Part shown: positions 19,643-30,783 of the stretch, in pieces
How positions within the stretch are numbered: position 1 is the first letter of the stretch
Layout: each line of letters begins with the position of its first letter
Assembly: GCA_017467845.1 (NCBI GenBank)
Contig: JAFUKH010000048.1
Coordinates: forward strand, 1-32,225
Length of the DNA: 32,225 nt
Origin: Lachnospiraceae bacterium
GTDB lineage: Bacteria > Bacillota > Clostridia > Lachnospirales > Lachnospiraceae
Reading direction: 5' to 3'
Notes under the pieces: model-generated
The model's database searches: none
What the model saw: only the letters and a program-made list of their open reading frames with translations
Told to the model about the DNA's origin: nothing
Program-made: the position numbers and the translations under genes

Positions 19643-22366
19643 TTATACAAAATCCTTCTCTCTTAAAATAATCATATCCTCGTCGTCATAACGCTTTCCG
19701 AGAAGAATATCAAAGAAATGACCGAGATTCTTACGATTTGCATGGCGGATTGCCCCGTCCATCAGCTCCTTAACCTCTAATACCGTCACCACATGGTCAC
19801 TGGTCTGCATCTCATCAATTCTCTGGTGAAGTGCCAGAACTCCGAACTCATCTATAGAATACTCCATTTCCCAAGCATATTTTTTGGCAAATGCTACCAA
19901 GGCATCGTCACTTAACGCATCTACATCCATACGTGCAGTAAAAACATTGGTAAACTCTTTATGCTTAGCCAAGAATTTGTTCATAGCCTTCTTAGTATCT
20001 TCCAAAATTACCAGAATTCCCAGATGCTCCTGCTGCAACGCCTTGTATAAACTGTCTGCGGATGCATCCGACATCTCTGCCGCTTTCTGAACAATCAACG
20101 CGCCGTTAGCAAGGTCCCGCGTCAACTTCGGAATATCCTGCTTATCCAGAGATCCTCCGGAAATCTTGGCAGTCTTTCCCGCAAAGTTATTGTCAGAAGC
20201 TTGTACATCACGAACAATATTCTTTGCAAGGCCAAGGGTGTTGACTCCTTCCGGACCGGTCACAATCACGTTTCCGGTGTACGCCGCCATACTGATACCA
20301 TCCAGCACCTTTATCAACTGATTTTTGGAAGCTTTCCCCTGAATATACGGGGCAAACAACTCTTTCTCCTCACGAGTAAGAGTACGTACTACCGGTTCAG
20401 CAGGTGCCTCTTCAACGACAACTTCCTCTTCCGCAATCGCTTCATTCTCGTTTTCAGGCACGTCTTCTACGATTGCTTCTTCCTCACTCTCTGGGATTTC
20501 CTCGATAACAGGCTCATCCTCAGTTTCGAATACTTCTTCAACGACAACTTCTTCCTCAAACTCAGGAATCTCTTCTACAGGGGACTCTTCTTCAATATAT
20601 GAAGTACTTTCCTCCAGAATCTCTTCCAGTTCTTCTACCTCAGCATCGCTTCCATCAGATTCCTCTAAATGAAGCTCTTCTACCTCAATTTCTTCAACCG
20701 GAATCTCTTCTTCGAGAACATCTTCTTCAAGAATCTCTTCTAATGAAACCTCTTCCTCCGCCTGCGATTCTTCGATTGCAGCCTCTACACTCTTCACTGC
20801 AATTTCTCCCGTGAAGTCCTCTTCGGAAATTGCTTCCATGGCAACCTCACCGGATTCCTCCTCGGACTCCATATCACCAAGCTTCATTACCGCCGGTGAT
20901 TTCACTTTATCTGCCTCAATCTGCTCAAGCAGACTGTCTCGCATTTGTGCCTCGAACTCAGTAAACATGGGGCCTGTTCTCTGCAGAACTCTCTGACGAA
21001 CCTCCGCCTCACGCTTCTCCTTATTCTCGTTCTTCATTCGCTCCCACTCAGCCAGGATATCATCAATGCTCATCTGACCGGTAATCTGCTTCTCTACAGC
21101 CTCTTCCTTCGGCATAACCAAACGAATCTGTCCGTCAGACTCCATAGAAAGAACATTTGCCAGCTCCTTGGGAGGTTCTTCACTGGCCTTTCTCGCCTTA
21201 CGCATATCCTCCATAACTGCCTTGGCGGTAGCATCTACTGTTGGTTCTTCCTCCGCAAGTGCCTCCTCAACAGGCTCTTCGCCATCCTGCTCTGATTCTA
21301 CAATTTCTTCTGTAGTCGTCTCTTCTTCTGTAGCTTCTCCTGTATCGTCCACGGCTTCCTCTAGCGGCGTGGGTGCTTCTCCTGCCTGCCAGGGAACAGC
21401 TTCCACACTACCCAGTTCCATTTCACTGGTCTCTCCAAAGAACACTTCGGATTCCACTTCAGGTTCAGCAAGCTGCTCCTGAACCTCCTTTGCCGGTATC
21501 TGGGTTGTCCCCCGAAGCATAGGGGCGATAATGGACTTAGTAATTGCATCCCCCGCATCCTGCGGCGCATTCAGTACTTCCTTTAAGCCCTCCGCAATTT
21601 CCTTCTGCAGATTGATGGTATTATATTCTCCCACATCCATGGTCTTTACATGGATTTCATCCTCAATAGCAGTCTCGGGTTGCGTAACCTGCGTGGCTTC
21701 CGGCTCCTGTGCCACCTTTTCTACTACAGGTTCAGGTTCCGGCTCCTCCACCGGTGCCATGAACATATCATATTTGGCCTGCTGGTCGGGAGTAAGTGCC
21801 TGATGAAGCATCTTCAACTCCATCGCCTTCACCACATACTTACCTTCTCCAAACCATAAAATCAGCTCATCACATTCTTCTACGCATCTGGTTGCCATCC
21901 CCGCCTTATGATAGAGGTTAGCTAACTCAAAGGCCCACTTTTCACGGTAGTCCTCCTTTTTCATCTGCTCCAAAACAGCAATACGCTCTTCCAGGCTCAC
22001 CTCCTGAGCCTCATACAGCTTGTACTGCAATATATAGCGTCCCGTATCATTAGGCGCAATCTGCACAAACTCTTTATAATACTCTACTGCCAGCAGAATA
22101 TCTCCCATCTTAATAGAAAGCTCACACAGCGAAAAAACGATGGTTCTTCCCCCGGGGTGTCTGCCATAGGCCAAAAGAAGTAAATCCCTACTATCCTCCA
22201 AACGACGATTAATCTTATATAAATCGCTGATGGTGCAGAGCATCATCACACTCTTAACCCGCCGCCAGTCGATTTCATCTGCAATCTCCATTGCGGACTT
22301 GTAATCGCCCTCTGCGATTAACGATTTAATTGCATCTGCCTTTATTCTGTATTCGTACTTATCCAA
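19643..22366 (-). CDS. TPR-acidic linker-degenerate AAA+-like protein, upstream of glgB
   Basis: 907 aa in three parts. Residues 1-~195 look like TPR-type helical repeats (AEGDYKSAMEIADEI; GDILLAVEYYKEFVQIAPND; LANLYHKAGM). Residues ~200-655 are a low-complexity linker very rich in Glu, with one helical island near 425-490. Residues ~665-907 have the outline of a CbbX/SpoVK-type AAA+ domain, but Walker A reads GPEGVNTLG (no GKT) and the Walker B place reads ALIVQKAAEM instead of xxxxIDEA. ATP hydrolysis is therefore unlikely. Translation starts at TTG 22366, with GGGAG eight bases upstream; a nearby ATG runs straight into a stop. It probably acts as a scaffold. Its link to glycogen is suggested only by the coupled glgB. 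Confidence 0.65.
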   Translation of the reverse strand: MDKYEYRIKADAIKSLIAEGDYKSAMEIADEIDWRRVKSVMMLCTISDLYKINRRLEDSRDLLLLAYGRHPGGRTIVFSLCELSIKMGDILLAVEYYKEFVQIAPNDTGRYILQYKLYEAQEVSLEERIAVLEQMKKEDYREKWAFELANLYHKAGMATRCVEECDELILWFGEGKYVVKAMELKMLHQALTPDQQAKYDMFMAPVEEPEPEPVVEKVAQEPEATQVTQPETAIEDEIHVKTMDVGEYNTINLQKEIAEGLKEVLNAPQDAGDAITKSIIAPMLRGTTQIPAKEVQEQLAEPEVESEVFFGETSEMELGSVEAVPWQAGEAPTPLEEAVDDTGEATEEETTTEEIVESEQDGEEPVEEALAEEEPTVDATAKAVMEDMRKARKASEEPPKELANVLSMESDGQIRLVMPKEEAVEKQITGQMSIDDILAEWERMKNENKEKREAEVRQRVLQRTGPMFTEFEAQMRDSLLEQIEADKVKSPAVMKLGDMESEEESGEVAMEAISEEDFTGEIAVKSVEAAIEESQAEEEVSLEEILEEDVLEEEIPVEEIEVEELHLEESDGSDAEVEELEEILEESTSYIEEESPVEEIPEFEEEVVVEEVFETEDEPVIEEIPESEEEAIVEDVPENENEAIAEEEVVVEEAPAEPVVRTLTREEKELFAPYIQGKASKNQLIKVLDGISMAAYTGNVIVTGPEGVNTLGLAKNIVRDVQASDNNFAGKTAKISGGSLDKQDIPKLTRDLANGALIVQKAAEMSDASADSLYKALQQEHLGILVILEDTKKAMNKFLAKHKEFTNVFTARMDVDALSDDALVAFAKKYAWEMEYSIDEFGVLALHQRIDEMQTSDHVVTVLEVKELMDGAIRHANRKNLGHFFDILLGKRYDDEDMIILREKDFV

Positions 22367-22628: not shown

Positions 22629-23075
22629 ATGAATACAACAATAAGACCAATGAATGAATCAGACAGAGAAAGTGTCCTTGAAATGATGCGCATCTTCTAC
22701 GCCTCTCCCGCAGTGCTCAGCAACGGCTCCGAGGAAATCTTTCAGAGCGATGTAGAAAATTGCGTAAATAACTGCCCCTTCTTAGAGGGATATGTTTTTG
22801 AAGCAGATGATAAAATTCTGGGATATGCTATGCTTGCTAAAAGCTTCTCCACCGAATTCGGCAAGCCCTGTATCTGGATTGAAGATTTGTATATTAAAGA
22901 GGATTATCGCGGTCTGGGAATCGGAAGTCAGTTTTTCGCCTGTATCGAAGAAAAGTACAAGAATGTAATCTTCCGTTTGGAGGCAGAAGAAGAAAATGGG
23001 CGGGCAGTTCGTGTATATAAAAAATGTGGCTATGAAGTACTTCCCTATTTGGAGATGAAGAAAATAAATGAGTAA
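22629..23075 (+). CDS. GNAT family N-acetyltransferase
   Basis: 148 aa. It begins NTTIRPMNESDRESVLEMM, the usual opening of a GNAT domain. It carries acetyl-CoA binding motif A as LYIKEDYRGLGIGSQFF and a C-terminal RVYKKCGYEVLPYLEMKK block. The acceptor cannot be told; small amines or protein N-termini are both possible. AGGAG seven bases before the ATG supports the start. Its last 8 nt overlap the MATE gene start (ATGAGTAA), so the two are co-expressed. Confidence 0.88.
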   Translation: MNTTIRPMNESDRESVLEMMRIFYASPAVLSNGSEEIFQSDVENCVNNCPFLEGYVFEADDKILGYAMLAKSFSTEFGKPCIWIEDLYIKEDYRGLGIGSQFFACIEEKYKNVIFRLEAEEENGRAVRVYKKCGYEVLPYLEMKKINE

Positions 23076-24403
23076 AACACAGAATGATTTTTCGAAAGGA
23101 CCTGTGTGGAAATGTATTCTTGCACAGGCACTCCCCCTAACAGTTGCCCAATTGGTGCAGCTCCTTTATAACGTAGTTGATCGTATTTACATCGGACATA
23201 TGGGAGACGGTAGCAGCATTGCTCTAACCGGTGTCGGACTAACATTCCCCATCGTCACTCTAATCATGGCATTTACTGCACTGTTCGGAATGGGCGGGGT
23301 TCCCCTCTTTTCCATGGCACGTGGCGGTGGCGACGAAGAAGAAGCAGCGAAAATTTTAGGAAACGCCTTTGCACTGCTTGTCATCAGTTCCATTATATTG
23401 ACCATTATAAGCTATGTATTTTGCAAACCTATCCTATTCCTATTCGGAGCCAGCGAAGCTTCGTACATATACGCTGAGGAGTACCTGAAAATCTATCTTT
23501 TAGGCACTATATTCTCCATGCTGACCACCGGACTAAATGGGTATATCAATGCACAGGGCTTCCCCAAATCGGTATGCTGACCACCATTTTGGGCGCTGTA
23601 ATCAATATCGTTTTGGACCCTATCTTTATCTTTGGATTGGATATGGGTGTAGCAGGCGCAGCCCTTGCCACAGTTATCAGGTATCCGCCATATGGGTAAT
23701 ATGTTTTTTGACCGGAAAGAATGCACTTATCCGTATAAAAATGAACTGTGTACGACTAAGCAGGTCGATCACCAAAGAAATTTGTAAGCTTGGTGCCTCC
23801 AACTTCATCATGCAGGGAACTAACTGTCTGGTGCAGGTTGTCTGCAATGCCACCCTGCAAAGCTACGGCGGTGATATATACGTGGGAATCATGACTGTAC
23901 TGAATTCTATCCGAGAAATATTCGTACTGCCCATCAATGGTATCGTCAACGGAGCCCAACCGGTTATCAGCTTTAATTACGGTGCCAAACAAAACCTCCG
24001 GGTAAAAGCGGGAATCCGCTTCAATACTCTCATTGGCTCTACGTACACCATGCTGGCATGGATCTGCATCGTCCTTTTCCCTAGGTTCTGGTTTGGCATC
24101 TTCTCCGACGACCTGCAGATGATGGATATCGGAATCAGTGCCTTGAAAATTTATTTCTTTGGCTTTGTATTTATGTCCCTCCAGTTTGCCGGGCAGTCCA
24201 CTTTTCAGGCACTGGGCGACGCGAAGCACGCCATTTTCTTTTCCCTGCTCCGTAAGGCTATCATCGTCACGCCCCTCACCTTCTTACTGCCCATGCTGGG
24301 CTTCGGCGTACACGGTGTCATTCTTGCAGAGCCGATTTCCAACGCCATCGGAGGTCTGGCATGCTATGTTACTATGCGGAGAACGATTTATCGAAAATTG
24401 TAA
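23068..24403 (+). pseudogene. MATE family efflux transporter, broken by two frameshifts
   Basis: Three frames together give a full-length (~445 aa) MATE exporter. The first segment (from 23068) contains LPLTVAQLVQLLYNVVDRIYIG and runs to a stop at 23578. A second segment in another frame (from ~23568) reads GMLTTILGAVINIVLDPIFIFGLD up to ATVI at ~23678. A third frame continues from ~23678 with VSAIWVICFLTGKNAL to the stop at 24403. The first break fits loss of one A in a run (CCCCAAATCGG). The second loses 1 or, more likely, 7 nt between ATVI and VSAIWV, where family members usually have a few more residues. The downstream frame still looks protein-like, so the damage is recent or a sequencing error. 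Confidence 0.85.
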
Positions 24404-25786: not shown

Positions 25787-26644
25787 TTATTTCAACACAT
25801 TACTCAGCTGCGCAAACTGCTCCAGCGTCAGTGCCTCTCCGCGGATGGTAGCTGACCAGCCAAGCTTCTCCAGCGTTTCGGTTACCTTTTCCTTACTAAG
25901 TCCCAGCTCCGGTGCATTGGTTAAGCCATTCACCAAAGTCTTTCTTCGCTGGTTAAAGGATGCACGGATAAGCGAAAACATATACTTCTCATCATTTACC
26001 TGCACCGGGGGCGCATCATATCTGGTCAGACGGATCACTGCACTTCCTACATTGGGGCGAGGCATGAAGCAGTTTGGGGGTACATTGGCTACGATTTCCG
26101 GCTTGGCATAATACTGCACCGCCAGAGAAAGCGCACCATAGTCCTTGGTTCCGGGACCTACCTGCATACGGTCTGCCACTTCCTTCTGCACCATAATGGT
26201 AATGCTCTGCAGAGGTACATGACTTTCGAAAAGTCCCATAATAATAGGCGTGGTAATATAGTAAGGCAGGTTTGCTACCACCTTAATGGGCTTTCCTGCA
26301 TTTTTCTCTTCTACGATTTTATTAATGTCCACCTTCAGAATATCATCGTTAATCACGGTCACATTGTCATACTCCGATAGGGTATCTTCCAAAATGGGAA
26401 TCAAATTCTTATCGATTTCCACAGCCACCACCTCTCTGGCATTCTCCGCCAGATACTGGGTCATGGTACCGATACCGGGACCGATTTCCAGAATACAATC
26501 CTCCCCCGTAATCTCCGCAGACTCAATAATGCGGTCCAATACCCTTGTATCAATCAGAAAATTCTGACCAAACTTTTTTTGAAAATTAAAGTTATATTTC
26601 TGCAAAACTGCAATGGTGTTCTGTGGAATTCCTAAATTCGCCAT
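25787..26644 (-). CDS. ksgA: 16S rRNA (adenine(1518)-N(6)/adenine(1519)-N(6))-dimethyltransferase
   Basis: About 285 aa. Diagnostic motifs are QNFLIDTRVLDRII at the N-terminus, SAM motif I ILEIGPGIGTMTQYL, and the catalytic NLPYYITTPIIM. It dimethylates two adjacent adenines in helix 45 of 16S rRNA during small-subunit maturation. The frame opens at a GTG (26650), but ATG 26644 is preferred because AAAGGA lies nine bases before it and only three before the GTG. It is the last gene of the operon behind the MBOAT and DHHW-like genes, 15 nt after the latter. Confidence 0.96.
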   Translation of the reverse strand: MANLGIPQNTIAVLQKYNFNFQKKFGQNFLIDTRVLDRIIESAEITGEDCILEIGPGIGTMTQYLAENAREVVAVEIDKNLIPILEDTLSEYDNVTVINDDILKVDINKIVEEKNAGKPIKVVANLPYYITTPIIMGLFESHVPLQSITIMVQKEVADRMQVGPGTKDYGALSLAVQYYAKPEIVANVPPNCFMPRPNVGSAVIRLTRYDAPPVQVNDEKYMFSLIRASFNQRRKTLVNGLTNAPELGLSKEKVTETLEKLGWSATIRGEALTLEQFAQLSNVLK

Positions 26645-26659
26645 ACACACAGTTCCTTT

Positions 26660-27670
26660 CTAATACATAAATTCTTCTAAAAAGCTGTCACATCCGTACA
26701 TCACCAGCACATCAAACTGATCGTAGATATCACAGTCCTTCATATATTCCTTTAAATCTCCGGTAAAATGCTGCAAATCCACTGCATAAATCTTCTCATA
26801 ATGAGGTGCCAGAAGGGGAATCACCACATTGGCATTGTCATCCTTCAGCACAAAAAGGGCTTTGCCGTTCTTAAACTCCGTATCAATGATCGTTACTCCA
26901 TAATCTCCGTCTAAGAAGTAATCATAAGCATCCTCCGAAGTAAGCCGATTCTCGGACACATAGGAATCCGCTGTCATTTCATTATCATAGTTAATAGATA
27001 CCTGCTGGGTCAAAACGTGAGGAAATACCTTTATCTGATCCTTCACATCACTCTTGACCCCTATGGTAGCAACCATATCTCCCACAAAGTTACTCTTTAC
27101 CGTCTCCAGCTTGTCCAGCTGATACCAGAAAGGGAAAGAAGCACAGGTCTTGGCCCATTCCCGATAAATATAGTACGCGCCTACAGAAGTGATGCGGCTA
27201 TCCGTCTTAAAATATACTCCCTCCTGCACATGCTCTACAAAAGCAGGAAATACATCAATTACATGGTCATCCCCAATGGCATCCTCCACTGCGGTAAGCA
27301 GGTTACGCTCATTTAGATAGGGAGCCTGCCACGGAAGATAATCCGTCAAAATATTATCTGCTGTAGGAATCAGTATCACCTGGGTCTGGGGATAATCCTG
27401 CACCAGCTCAGTAATCTGAAGCAGCTTCTCCTCATGTAGCGATGCTGGGTAAGTCTGGGGCAAATGCTGCTCAATATAATAATCATCCTCCGCCAGATAG
27501 ACACCGTTTACCACCTTTACATTCAGGAAAAAGTCCATATACGTGGTAATCTGAAGCAGCTTGTCTCTGCCGATATCCTGTTTTACAAAATCAAATACCG
27601 CAAACACCAAAAGAATTCCCGCCAGGAAAACTACGGTTCCAGCTGTATTTTTCTTTTTGTCCAAAATCAT
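26660..27670 (-). CDS. DHHW-like (AlgX/SGNH-type) secreted protein lacking the catalytic residues
   Basis: 336 aa. An N-terminal membrane anchor (VVFLAGILLVFAVFDFV) is followed by an extracellular domain. The order of motifs follows the DHHW proteins that partner MBOAT acyltransferases: a YYIEQ-type stretch, the KTDHHWTxxGAY site, and the LxVIKDSYAN site. Here these read KTDSRITSVGAY (157-161) and FVLKDDNAN (276-281), so the His/Trp of DHHW and the SGNH serine are gone. AGGA six bases before the ATG supports the start. It lies 12 nt after the MBOAT stop and 15 nt before ksgA. It probably binds rather than modifies a cell-surface polymer. The comparison is from memory of the family. Confidence 0.75.
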   Translation of the reverse strand: MILDKKKNTAGTVVFLAGILLVFAVFDFVKQDIGRDKLLQITTYMDFFLNVKVVNGVYLAEDDYYIEQHLPQTYPASLHEEKLLQITELVQDYPQTQVILIPTADNILTDYLPWQAPYLNERNLLTAVEDAIGDDHVIDVFPAFVEHVQEGVYFKTDSRITSVGAYYIYREWAKTCASFPFWYQLDKLETVKSNFVGDMVATIGVKSDVKDQIKVFPHVLTQQVSINYDNEMTADSYVSENRLTSEDAYDYFLDGDYGVTIIDTEFKNGKALFVLKDDNANVVIPLLAPHYEKIYAVDLQHFTGDLKEYMKDCDIYDQFDVLVMYGCDSFLEEFMY

Positions 27671-27682
27671 ATACGTTCCTCG

Positions 27683-29017
27683 TTAATATCCCTTTACCAT
27701 ATAAGCCAAAGTCAAAATCAAAAGAAGTGCCGGGAAAAGCTTCTCCGAAACCCGGGTAATTGCCATACCAAGTCCACCCTCTGAATTTCTGAGCCTCTGC
27801 GCCGCATTGTGTACCCACGGCATCGCAGAGACAATCGCCACTGCAATAAGAATAATCTGGCTCTTCAAAGAAAACAGTGCCATTCTGTCTACCAATCCAA
27901 CACCCTTCATGCCAAAAAGCACCATGATATAATCCATAGACTGACTGATACTGTCTGCCGCAAAAAAGGATAGGCTCACAATGATGACCAGCCATGTATA
28001 AATACGGGTGACATGCTCAGGAAGCTTCTCAAGCAGCTTTCCTAAAAAACTGCTCTCCAGCACCATCCAGAAGAAGAACCACAGTCCCCACGCATAAAAG
28101 TGATATGCGATACCATACCAGGCACCAACTAGGAGCCAGGTAAGCAGCATATTAAACCACTTACGGAGAATACCATATCGGCTGCCCCCCAAAGGAATAT
28201 ATACATAGTCCTTAAACCACACGCTGAGAGAGATCTGCCATCTGCTCCAAAAATCCTTTACGCTGGTAGCGGTGAAAGGATAATTGAAATTCTCTTTCAG
28301 GGAAAATCCCATAATCTGCGCCAGGCCTGTTGCCATATCAGAATAGCCTGAAAAATCAAAATATATCTTAAAACCAAAGGATGCAAATCCTATCCACGCA
28401 GTAAGAGTACTTAAATCCTCCGGATTGGCAGCGGATACCGTATTCCAAAATACACATATACTGTTTGCCAATATCACCTTTTTAGCAAGACCTACAATAA
28501 ACCGAATCAGTCCACTCTTTACCTTCTCCACATCAACCTTGCGATGGGACAGCTGCTCTTCCATATCTCTGTAGCCAACTACCGGCCCAAGATTCATCTG
28601 GGGGAACATGGATATATATACACCCAGCTTAATAAAATCCTTCTGAGGCTGCACCGTTCCCCGATAACACTCAGAAAGATAGCTGATAGACTGCATACAG
28701 TAAATCAGGGTACCGGCCGGAACCACCCAGCTGGACTGATGAGAAAGGGCAATAAACGAAAGATTTAAAGTAACTCCCGCCATAAAAAATATAAATCTCA
28801 CCCACCGCTTCTTGCATATACCCATAAAAAGCGCCAATACATAATCGAAAATAATCGCCGCAAATAGCATCGTCAGGCGAGTTTTATCTCCCCAAGCATA
28901 GAAAACAAGGCTCCCCAAAAAGAGGACAAGGTTCTTCACCTTCTCCGGAGCCACAAAATACAAAATCATGAAAATAGGTAAAAATCGAAATATAAATCCA
29001 AAGGATGCAAAATCCAT
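27683..29017 (-). CDS. MBOAT-family membrane O-acyltransferase homologue, both conserved histidines replaced
   Basis: About 444 aa with ten or more hydrophobic segments. The AlgI/DltB/PatA layout is clear: QMNLGPVVGYRDM, KIYFDFSGYSDMATGLA, NFNYPF, then DFWSRW..ISLSVWFKDYVYIPLGG. In family members the invariant WHIS histidine sits here; this protein has Gln261 (codon CAG). The second motif WHG reads WYG (Tyr301, codon TAT). It would normally pass acyl groups across the membrane to a secreted partner, which here is the adjacent DHHW-like protein. ATG 29017 is chosen because GGGGG lies five bases upstream; an upstream TTG falls inside the leader hairpin. It is first in the operon. Transfer activity is doubtful. 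Confidence 0.85.
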   Translation of the reverse strand: MDFASFGFIFRFLPIFMILYFVAPEKVKNLVLFLGSLVFYAWGDKTRLTMLFAAIIFDYVLALFMGICKKRWVRFIFFMAGVTLNLSFIALSHQSSWVVPAGTLIYCMQSISYLSECYRGTVQPQKDFIKLGVYISMFPQMNLGPVVGYRDMEEQLSHRKVDVEKVKSGLIRFIVGLAKKVILANSICVFWNTVSAANPEDLSTLTAWIGFASFGFKIYFDFSGYSDMATGLAQIMGFSLKENFNYPFTATSVKDFWSRWQISLSVWFKDYVYIPLGGSRYGILRKWFNMLLTWLLVGAWYGIAYHFYAWGLWFFFWMVLESSFLGKLLEKLPEHVTRIYTWLVIIVSLSFFAADSISQSMDYIMVLFGMKGVGLVDRMALFSLKSQIILIAVAIVSAMPWVHNAAQRLRNSEGGLGMAITRVSEKLFPALLLILTLAYMVKGY

Positions 29018-29029
29018 GTCAGCCCCCCG

Positions 29030-29110
29030 GGAAGTAGGCAATTCTATCCTCTGTAAGAACTCCGAAGCAGTGGCTAGTCGCCCTTACAGAGGATAGAATT
29101 GCCTACTTCC
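29030..29110. repeat. Perfect 28-bp inverted repeat in the MBOAT leader
   Basis: Bases 29030-29057 (beginning GGAAGTAGGCAATTC) are the exact reverse complement of 29083-29110, with a 25-nt loop between them. As RNA on the minus strand it would form a very stable hairpin ending 1-2 nt before the G-rich ribosome site (29023-29028) of the MBOAT gene. There is no flanking T-run, so it is not an ordinary terminator. It could control translation, be an RNase III site, or be a small mobile palindrome. Confidence 0.9.
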
Positions 29111-29135
29111 GTTGTCTTCGCATTAACTCACAGTA

Positions 29136-29144
29136 AGTATAACA
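29136..29144 (-). promoter_or_regulatory. Extended -10 promoter of the MBOAT-DHHW-ksgA operon
   Basis: On the minus strand the sequence is TGTTATACT, an extended -10 element. The predicted start (~29129) would place the whole 28-bp hairpin (29110-29030) inside a leader of about 110 nt. There is no good -35. Confidence 0.45.
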
Positions 29145-29165
29145 TAAAATGTATGCAAGAAAAAG

Positions 29166-29194
29166 ATGACATTCTCGCTATTTTCATGTATATT
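29166..29194 (+). promoter_or_regulatory. Likely promoter of the ABC-F gene
   Basis: ATGACA (29166-29171) and TATATT (29189-29194) are 17 bp apart, 32 nt before the ABC-F start. The -35 matches 5 of 6 and the -10 matches 5 of 6. It is divergent from, and just upstream of, the MBOAT promoter. Confidence 0.5.
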
Positions 29195-29226
29195 ATAACC
29201 AGCTAAAACGAAAAATGAGGTTTACT

Positions 29227-30783
29227 ATGAGTATTTTAAATGTGGAACACTTAACCCATGGCTTTGGGGACAGAGCCATTTTTAATGATGTATCCTTCCG
29301 CCTTTTAAAGGGGGAACACATCGGCTTAATCGGTGCTAACGGCGAGGGTAAATCTACCTTTATGAATATTATTACCGGAAAGTTAATGCCTGATGAGGGA
29401 AAGATTGAATGGGCCAAGAATGTGCGCGTGGGCTATCTGGATCAGCATACCGTACTGCAGCAGGGTATAACCATCCGCGACGTACTGGCATCTGCCTTTG
29501 ACTTCCTTTTCGAAATGGAAGCACAGATGAATGAGCTTTGTGAGAAAATGGGCGAAGCAGACCCGGATGAGCTGGAAGTCATGATGGAGGAATTCGGCAC
29601 TATACAGGAGCTTTTGACTCAGCATGATTTCTACATGATTGACTCCAAGGTAGAAGAAGTAGGACGAGCTCTGGGTCTTTCCGATATCGGCCTGGACAGA
29701 GACGTTACCGAGCTTTCGGGAGGTCAGCGTACCAAGGTTCTTCTGGGCAAGCTCCTTTTAGAGAAGCCGGACATCTTACTTCTGGACGAGCCTACAAACT
29801 ACCTTGACGCGGAGCATATTGAATGGTTAAAGAGATATCTGAACGATTATGAAAATGCCTTTATCCTAATCAGCCACGATATTCCTTTCTTAAACAGTGT
29901 CATCAACCTGATTTATCATATGGATAATCAGCTGCTGACCAGATATGTGGGCGACTATGATAAGTTCCAGGAAGTTTACGCCATGAAGAAAGCACAGCTG
30001 GAGGCAGCTTACAACAAGCAGCAGAAAGAAATCGCAGACCTAAAGGACTTCGTAGCACGAAACAAGGCTCGAGTTGCTACCAGAAATATGGCAATGTCCC
30101 GCCAGAAGAAGCTGGACAAGATGGAGATGATTGAGCTGGCAAATGAAAGACCGAAGCCGGAATTCAACTTCCGTGAAGGCCGTACCGCCGGAAAATACAT
30201 TTTCCAAACCAAGGATTTGGTCATCGGTTACAATGAGCCATTATCCAAGCCCTTAAACCTGGAAATGGAGCGCGGTCAGAAAATCGTCTTAGTGGGTGCC
30301 AACGGTATCGGTAAGACCACATTACTTAAAAGTATTCTGGGATTAATCAAGCCTTTGGAAGGCAAGGTAGAACAGGGAGATTATCTCCATATCGGATATT
30401 TTGAGCAGGAAATGAGTCAGGATGTGAATACCACTTGTATCGAAGAAATCTGGAATGAGTTCCCAAGCTTCACCCAATATGAAGTGCGCTCCGCTCTTGC
30501 AAAGTGCGGTCTGACCACCAAGCATATTGAGAGTAAAGTAAAGGTACTGTCCGGTGGTGAGCAGGCGAAGGTCCGTCTGTGTAAGTTAATCAACAGAGAG
30601 ACCAACATCCTTCTTCTGGATGAGCCTACCAACCACTTAGACGTAGATGCCAAGGAAGAATTAAAACGCGCTCTTCAGGCTTACAAGGGAAGCATCCTTA
30701 TGGTATGCCATGAGCCGGAATTCTACGAAGGCCTTGCCACCGACGTCTGGGACTGCACCAAGTGGACCACTAAGGTGTTCTAA
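29227..30783 (+). CDS. ABC-F family ATP-binding cassette protein
   Basis: 518 aa with two ABC ATPase domains in one chain and no membrane segment. Domain 1 has GANGEGKS (36-43), LSGGQRTK and LLLDEPTNYLD; domain 2 has GANGIGKTT, LSGGEQAK and LLLDEPTNHLD. The linker between them is charged (KKAQLEAAYNKQQKEIADL), as in ABC-F proteins that enter the ribosomal E site. It looks closest to the YkpA/YbiT-type housekeeping group, rather than an obvious antibiotic-protection subtype. The ATG at 29227 is chosen because GAGG lies six bases upstream; the frame is open from 29215. Its stop codon overlaps the stop of the convergent gene by 4 nt. Confidence 0.93.
   Translation: MSILNVEHLTHGFGDRAIFNDVSFRLLKGEHIGLIGANGEGKSTFMNIITGKLMPDEGKIEWAKNVRVGYLDQHTVLQQGITIRDVLASAFDFLFEMEAQMNELCEKMGEADPDELEVMMEEFGTIQELLTQHDFYMIDSKVEEVGRALGLSDIGLDRDVTELSGGQRTKVLLGKLLLEKPDILLLDEPTNYLDAEHIEWLKRYLNDYENAFILISHDIPFLNSVINLIYHMDNQLLTRYVGDYDKFQEVYAMKKAQLEAAYNKQQKEIADLKDFVARNKARVATRNMAMSRQKKLDKMEMIELANERPKPEFNFREGRTAGKYIFQTKDLVIGYNEPLSKPLNLEMERGQKIVLVGANGIGKTTLLKSILGLIKPLEGKVEQGDYLHIGYFEQEMSQDVNTTCIEEIWNEFPSFTQYEVRSALAKCGLTTKHIESKVKVLSGGEQAKVRLCKLINRETNILLLDEPTNHLDVDAKEELKRALQAYKGSILMVCHEPEFYEGLATDVWDCTKWTTKVF

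Follow-up and report, generated by a model that had tools for sequence, protein, structure and literature searches.

An MBOAT-SGNH gene pair of Lachnospiraceae that lacks the residues of the acyl relay and is probably retained for a non-acylating job

In live MBOAT-SGNH pairs, an acyl group is taken from a cytoplasmic donor and transferred by the MBOAT His to the Tyr of a C-terminal MBOAT peptide; this peptide delivers it to the Ser of the SGNH protein, which places it on a wall or surface polymer (PMC12148441). For PatAB, the same text describes that the MBOAT auto-acetylates the Tyr in a C-terminal hexapeptide which is very like the acyl-shuttle motif FXYXXF of DltX (PMC12148441). On the SGNH side, AlgJ relies on a Ser together with a D-x-H pair (PMC4148444), and the Arg in the block II motif DXRY of the DHHW-family protein PatB1 serves the oxyanion hole, R359A abolishing the activity (PMC9487903). 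Asn is found at the first His position in other MBOATs, and HHATL, a mammalian MBOAT with a His to Leu change, has been proposed to be a negative regulator of HHAT (both PMC5831804). In the literature searched, with most subscription journals outside its reach, no bacterial MBOAT-SGNH pseudoenzyme pair was found. To my knowledge, MBOAT-SGNH pairs have been studied as enzymes. HHATL is eukaryotic and is not known to have an SGNH partner.

Like PatA1/PatB1, PatAB, AlgI/AlgJ/AlgX, and DltB/DltD/DltX, the locus described here has adjacent MBOAT and SGNH genes belonging to the same profile families. In contrast to these systems, both MBOAT His residues and the FXYXXF shuttle are missing from it, as are three residues of the partner (His, Ser, and the oxyanion Arg). 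The MBOAT resembles HHATL in lacking the invariant His (Tyr301 here) and in having a live relative in the genome. It differs in that the alterations affect both members of a pair and, on the MBOAT tree, occur in three or more lineages. It is probable that this pair is an acyl-transfer machine whose chemistry was lost in place and which has been retained for another, non-acylating job.

Relay residues of the pair beside ksgA

The window, i.e., the whole stretch of 32,225 nucleotides that was analysed (contig JAFUKH010000048.1 of a Lachnospiraceae bacterium), has the pair between an ABC-F gene and ksgA, at the same locus as the canonical pairs of the genus. The MBOAT and SGNH genes have the same direction and are 12 nt apart, and the gene order MBOAT-DHHW-ksgA recurs in relatives. 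The features are given below, with G111 denoting the genome of the sister species and altered rows referring to the 17 altered pairs described in the next section.

25787..26650, minus strand: ksgA; GTG start at 26650, 9 nt past the stop of the partner gene; conserved neighbour marking the locus
26660..27670, minus strand: gene of the DHHW-family SGNH partner, 336 aa; PF14286 at 53.3 bits against a cut-off of 25; DHHW motif lost
26768..26779, minus strand: DLQH replacing DLRY in block II, oxyanion-hole Arg to Gln; G111 keeps DLRY
26837..26845, minus strand: KDD replacing KDS, nucleophile Ser to Asp (residue 278 at 26839-26837); G111 keeps KDS
27191..27202, minus strand: DSRI replacing DHHW; catalytic His to Arg, Asp unchanged
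27683..29017, minus strand: MBOAT gene, 444 aa, ATG at 29017; PF03062 at 72.3 bits against a cut-off of 27
27683..27706, minus strand: C-terminus of the MBOAT, ...AYMVKGY instead of the ...NPFLYFRF (FXYXXF acyl-shuttle motif) of canonical relatives
28115..28117, minus strand: Y301 (codon TAT) at the position of DltB H336; Tyr in 14 of the 17 altered rows
28235..28237, minus strand: Q261 (codon CAG) at the position of DltB H289; changed in all 17 altered rows
29030..29110, minus strand: 81-nt palindrome, perfect 28-bp arms around a 25-nt core; separates the conserved upstream stretch from the start of the MBOAT gene
29112..29195, minus strand: upstream stretch conserved with G111 (alignment score 97 against 64 for the best of 300 shuffles)
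29215..30783, plus strand: ABC-F ATPase gene, divergent, upstream of the pair; adjoins the pair in many relatives

By profile alignment, Q261 and Y301 correspond to H289 and H336 of DltB (6bug), the residue numbers being counted along the alignment; the profile of 13 family members matches DltB at E 3e-28. DSRI, KDD, and DLQH were likewise aligned with the DHHW, KDS, and DLR blocks of Bacillus cereus PatB1 (5v8d). A preliminary description of this DNA had pointed out Gln and Tyr in place of the MBOAT His residues and DSRI and KDD in the partner. All of these are present in the sequence and do occupy the DltB and PatB1 sites, and the same alignments rule out that the true catalytic residues lie elsewhere in the two proteins. 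That description had also taken both genes to be otherwise full length, with everything else intact, which does not hold. The partner is short of about 39 residues after the membrane anchor, where relatives read FSETENR...GxYxxxYExYxxDQF, and the alignment with relatives revealed that the MBOAT lacks an 18-residue loop as well as the C-terminal NPFLYFRF tail. The loss of the acyl-shuttle Tyr peptide, the loss of the oxyanion Arg, and the altered lineages at the same locus are additions to it. Of the 167 MBOAT columns conserved in at least 95% of the canonical rows (MBOATs with His at both positions 261 and 301), 60 are changed in the window and 0 to 6 in the seven canonical rows printed. For the partner, the corresponding numbers are 18 of 65 conserved columns and 0 to 4.

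The residues for each step of the relay are missing in the window: neither MBOAT His is present, the shuttle peptide is gone, and the partner has lost its His, Ser, and oxyanion Arg. Judged by its residues, the pair should be unable to run the acyl relay. Both proteins retain MBOAT and SGNH-type profile matches, that of the partner covering the last 167 positions of PF14286, and evolve under ordinary purifying selection. The profile matches suggest that the fold is retained.

Some other features of the neighbourhood were recorded. In many of the 32 loci examined (e.g., L094, L101, and L175), a further gene, encoding about 210-230 aa, lies between the DHHW gene and ksgA. It starts with FDMDGVLFDTE, looks by eye like a HAD-type phosphatase gene, and is absent from the window, G111, G114, G115, and G006. 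At 19643-22366 on the minus strand, the window encodes a 907-aa protein without a Pfam match, relatives of which occur near ksgA in many loci of the genus. At 23068-24403 on the plus strand, a MatE-type transporter is split over the overlapping frames 23068-23580 and 23537-24403, each of which matches the MatE profile, and it looks frameshifted. An RNA family scan of the window returned tRNA only.

Altered pairs in the genus and their origins

Among 138 genomes of the genus, G111 has the only close relative of the window pair (73% and 80% protein identity). G111 represents another species. In addition to the synteny and the deletions, it shares Q, Y, and DSRI with the window; it retains KDS and DLRY. 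Since G111 shares Q, Y, and DSRI and has neither the two MBOAT His residues nor DHHW, a recent private mutation of the window is ruled out. The expectation that the replacements occur together and are conserved was thus borne out for Q, Y, and DSRI, which are fixed in the two species over dS >1, but not for KDD, which is private to the window. The G111 DNA is identical over 8819 bases to JAFTXD010000038.1, from a Lachnospiraceae genome of roe deer colon, and this G111 record was the sole match when genome contigs were scanned by short peptide patterns. No relative was found in the viral contigs scanned. Among the matches listed for 397 genomes of the family, no partner of >42% identity was found outside the genus of the window; 28 loci from this search were read, and all 27 with an MBOAT in the stretch are canonical.

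Might the altered pair be a mis-assembled, recombined, or contaminating piece? The window comes from a draft genome of 85.8% completeness in 105 contigs, and the window MBOAT groups with those of G114 and G115 while the window ksgA is placed elsewhere. However, the same altered pair with the same synteny exists in the genome record of another species, and such an artefact is extremely improbable.

Inspection of the motifs at this locus in further genomes revealed altered pairs beyond G111. In total, 17 altered pairs including that of the window were compared with 79 canonical relatives in the genus; the number 17 is a lower bound, weak or fragmentary matches among the 138 genomes having been only partly examined. 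The altered pairs comprise group A (the window, G111, and G114), group B (G163, G029, G045, G105, G018, G148, G132, G011, G116, G155, G109, and G137), and group C (G043 and G130). ksgA is found beside the pair in all 17 altered rows and in 54 of the 79 canonical rows; the 25 remaining stretches hold no ksgA, likely because of contig ends and short flanks.

In every altered row, both partners have lost one or more catalytic elements. In the MBOAT, the first His is lost in 17 rows, the second in 14, and the shuttle in 16, and the frame is open from the first Met in all 17. In the partner, the first His of DHHW is changed in 17 of 17, the block II oxyanion Arg is lost in 16, and D-x-H or Ser is lost in 9. 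Of 86 canonical rows, 85 have a full shuttle, the exception stopping at FLYFR at a contig end. Canonical rows with a partner have D-x-H and Ser in 82 of 82 each and the block II Arg in 80 of 82; of the two without a scored Arg, G013 has Gln and the other row is not covered there. The 87 canonical MBOAT rows include L179 (a paralogue of the C66 type, see below) and L109 with six others (other genera), all outside the 79 of the genus, and 3 of those 79 have no partner in the stretch.

G114 (L108) has Asn at the first MBOAT position and keeps the second His and the shuttle; the second His is also kept in G043 and G130. The G114 MBOAT may be live, given that other MBOATs also have Asn at this site (PMC5831804). 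G013 (L124) combines a canonical MBOAT with a partner that has DRHW and the block II Arg to Gln change. Thus, the losses in the MBOAT and in the partner are not strictly tied, and G013 perhaps stands at an early stage or has undergone a separate change limited to the partner.

The partner triad (D-x-H and Ser) is intact in 8 of the 17 altered rows. It could be argued that the SGNH protein works there as a lone esterase or accepts acyl groups from another MBOAT. Each of the 17 altered genomes has 2 to 9 matches to the window MBOAT listed, some of them perhaps pieces, so other MBOATs are likely present. Nevertheless, the window partner has no His, Ser, or Arg at these sites, and 16 of the 17 partners have lost the block II Arg, the loss of which abolishes the activity of B. 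cereus PatB1 (PMC9487903). A partner-only enzyme is highly improbable.

The MBOAT trees were built without the catalytic columns, and both the MBOAT and ksgA trees are quick trees. On the MBOAT tree, the altered rows need three changes, and the starred branches force three. A single origin of all altered pairs was rejected on this tree (p-AU 0.0037, with 40 of the 87 canonical rows used), the group having been named after the residues were seen. For the AU test on ksgA, the long-branch rows L109, L103, and L152 and rows of <160 residues unless altered were excluded. On the ksgA tree, the altered rows need five to six changes, the starred branches force two, and one clade is not rejected (p-AU 0.132); the ksgA data also accommodate group B as a single clade (p 0.62). 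The two trees differ on the nearest canonical relatives of the window, and exchange at the locus is therefore possible.

It was also assessed which positions are changed in all three groups, defined as at least 2/3 of A, at least 3/4 of B, and all of C. In the MBOAT these are H261, V293, T297, and F444 (1.38 expected of 165 columns, p 0.039), a p value that is partly circular because H261 helped define the altered set. In the partner they are H158, T198, N256, and R300 (0.33 expected of 63, p 0.000065). The test presumes equal changeability of columns, which does not hold. Three phylogenetically independent contrasts are available, with the same direction in nearly all pairings (sign test p 0.25). 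Of the recurrently lost positions, T198, N256, and H158 of the partner and V293 and T297 of the MBOAT lie outside the known catalytic residues and are candidate substrate-handling positions of live enzymes.

Selection and live paralogues

In the comparison of the window with G111 by the Nei-Gojobori method, the MBOAT has dS 1.36 and dN/dS 0.133 and the partner dS 1.13 and dN/dS 0.112; the neighbours have dN/dS 0.026 (ksgA) and 0.014 (ABC-F). Nonsynonymous change is low in the 40-codon segments containing DSRI (0.021) and WQIS (0.051). Other altered species pairs have dN/dS 0.073-0.202 for the MBOAT and, where defined, 0.097-0.153 for the partner, compared with 0.039-0.188 (17 pairs) and 0.054-0.159 (15 with a partner) in canonical species pairs. 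Several of these dS values are near saturation, and no dN/dS was obtained for the saturated L107/L108 comparison and two partner pairs of group B. The dN/dS check proposed in the preliminary description thus places the altered pairs within the canonical range after the change.

How fast was the change itself? For rows with a ksgA identity of 0.88-0.92, MBOAT identity averages 0.69 when both rows are canonical and 0.44 when an altered row is compared with a canonical one. In the 0.92-0.99 range of ksgA identity, the averages are 0.72 within the altered set (22 pairs) and 0.74 within the canonical set (6 pairs). Thus, the MBOAT changed fast at the transition and at an ordinary rate afterwards, and the constraint after the transition looks normal. 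A broader scenario would be that, in one genus and at one locus, the machine was converted at least three times into a two-protein pseudoenzyme with the same core positions lost, in a burst followed by normal constraint, and that the complex has a second, non-acylating envelope function selectable on its own. I put this scenario forward tentatively.

Regional rates were compared in 6 altered and 12 canonical pairs. The WQIS segment is among the most conserved parts in the window and G111, which would suit a protein that is still an enzyme, using Tyr301 or other lumen or groove residues to transfer a different group or to hydrolyse. The occurrence of Tyr at 301 in separate lineages (the group of the window and group B, 14 of 17 rows) points the same way. 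However, in group B, the segment at the first His has fallen from among the most conserved to about average. In addition, the losses extend beyond the His residues and Ser to the shuttle peptide and the oxyanion Arg. Changed chemistry is thus quite unlikely.

The window genome has a second, complete MBOAT-SGNH pair on contig C66. As in the window, this pair consists of an MBOAT and an AlgJ-like partner, but its relay is complete (WHIS, WHG, NPFLYFRF, DTHW, RDS, and DIRY), and its MBOAT is 36% identical to that of the window. Contig C3 of the same genome has an MBOAT with the canonical His residues near a gene judged by eye to be a dlt-type ligase gene. A partner of the C66 type (E <1e-70) is present in 24 of the 138 genomes, including 5 of the 17 altered and 2 of the 79 canonical ones (Fisher p 0.0017, not corrected for kinship). 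It was considered whether replacement by the C66 type explains all cases, and this was ruled out by its absence from 12 of the 17 altered genomes. The distribution is suggestive of replacement by a C66-type pair in group A, G163, and G029 only.

These paralogues bear on the alternative that the pair is in slow decay, i.e., a dying pair that was freed by a replacement acyltransferase of the C66 type and is merely not yet lost. The enrichment of the C66 type in altered genomes fits with this, as do the fast change on the stem branch and the losses of segments. G115, which is the sister of G114 on the ksgA tree, carries the C66 type in addition to a live pair linked to ksgA. On the other hand, dN/dS stays near 0.1 over dS >1 in the sister pair and at 0.07-0.20 in the other altered pairs, the MBOAT frame is open from its first Met in all 17 rows, and there is a group of 11-12 altered species. 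The upstream stretch is also conserved, and the majority of altered genomes have no C66 type that could have freed the pair. Slow decay is therefore unlikely, and retention for a non-acylating job is preferred.

Candidate roles and the start region of the MBOAT gene

If the pair has been retained for such a job, the complex would still reside in the membrane, facing the wall, and would act without acylation. It may serve as a scaffold or bind polymers, or it may compete with the live acyltransferases of the genome and thereby tune them, in the way proposed for HHATL and HHAT. Scaffolding or polymer binding would be the likeliest role, with HHATL-like regulation second, because the single type of live paralogue that was mapped is absent from 12 of the 17 altered genomes. 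The preliminary description had proposed that the two proteins evolved together into a non-acyltransferase system. That both partners changed together agrees with this proposal, although its specific roles stay at the level of suggestion. If the preferred reading is true, continued selection on two partners that have both lost the relay would show that the complex as such has another task.

The start of the MBOAT gene is unusual. The 81-nt hairpin directly precedes the ATG, where G111 has AAAGGAG. The conserved upstream stretch contains a TATACT box at 29141-29136, which is promoter-like by eye.

The palindrome at 29030-29110 belongs to a repeat family with the core GGYGACTWGCCACTGCWTCGGAR and long arms, of which L113-L119 and L180-L209 are also members. 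With up to three mismatches, the core was found in 20 of the 138 genomes of the genus, at a maximum of 27 copies per genome. The arms are alike among the copies read from several other genomes, and the window genome has six copies with differing, largely complementary arms of 22-29 bp.
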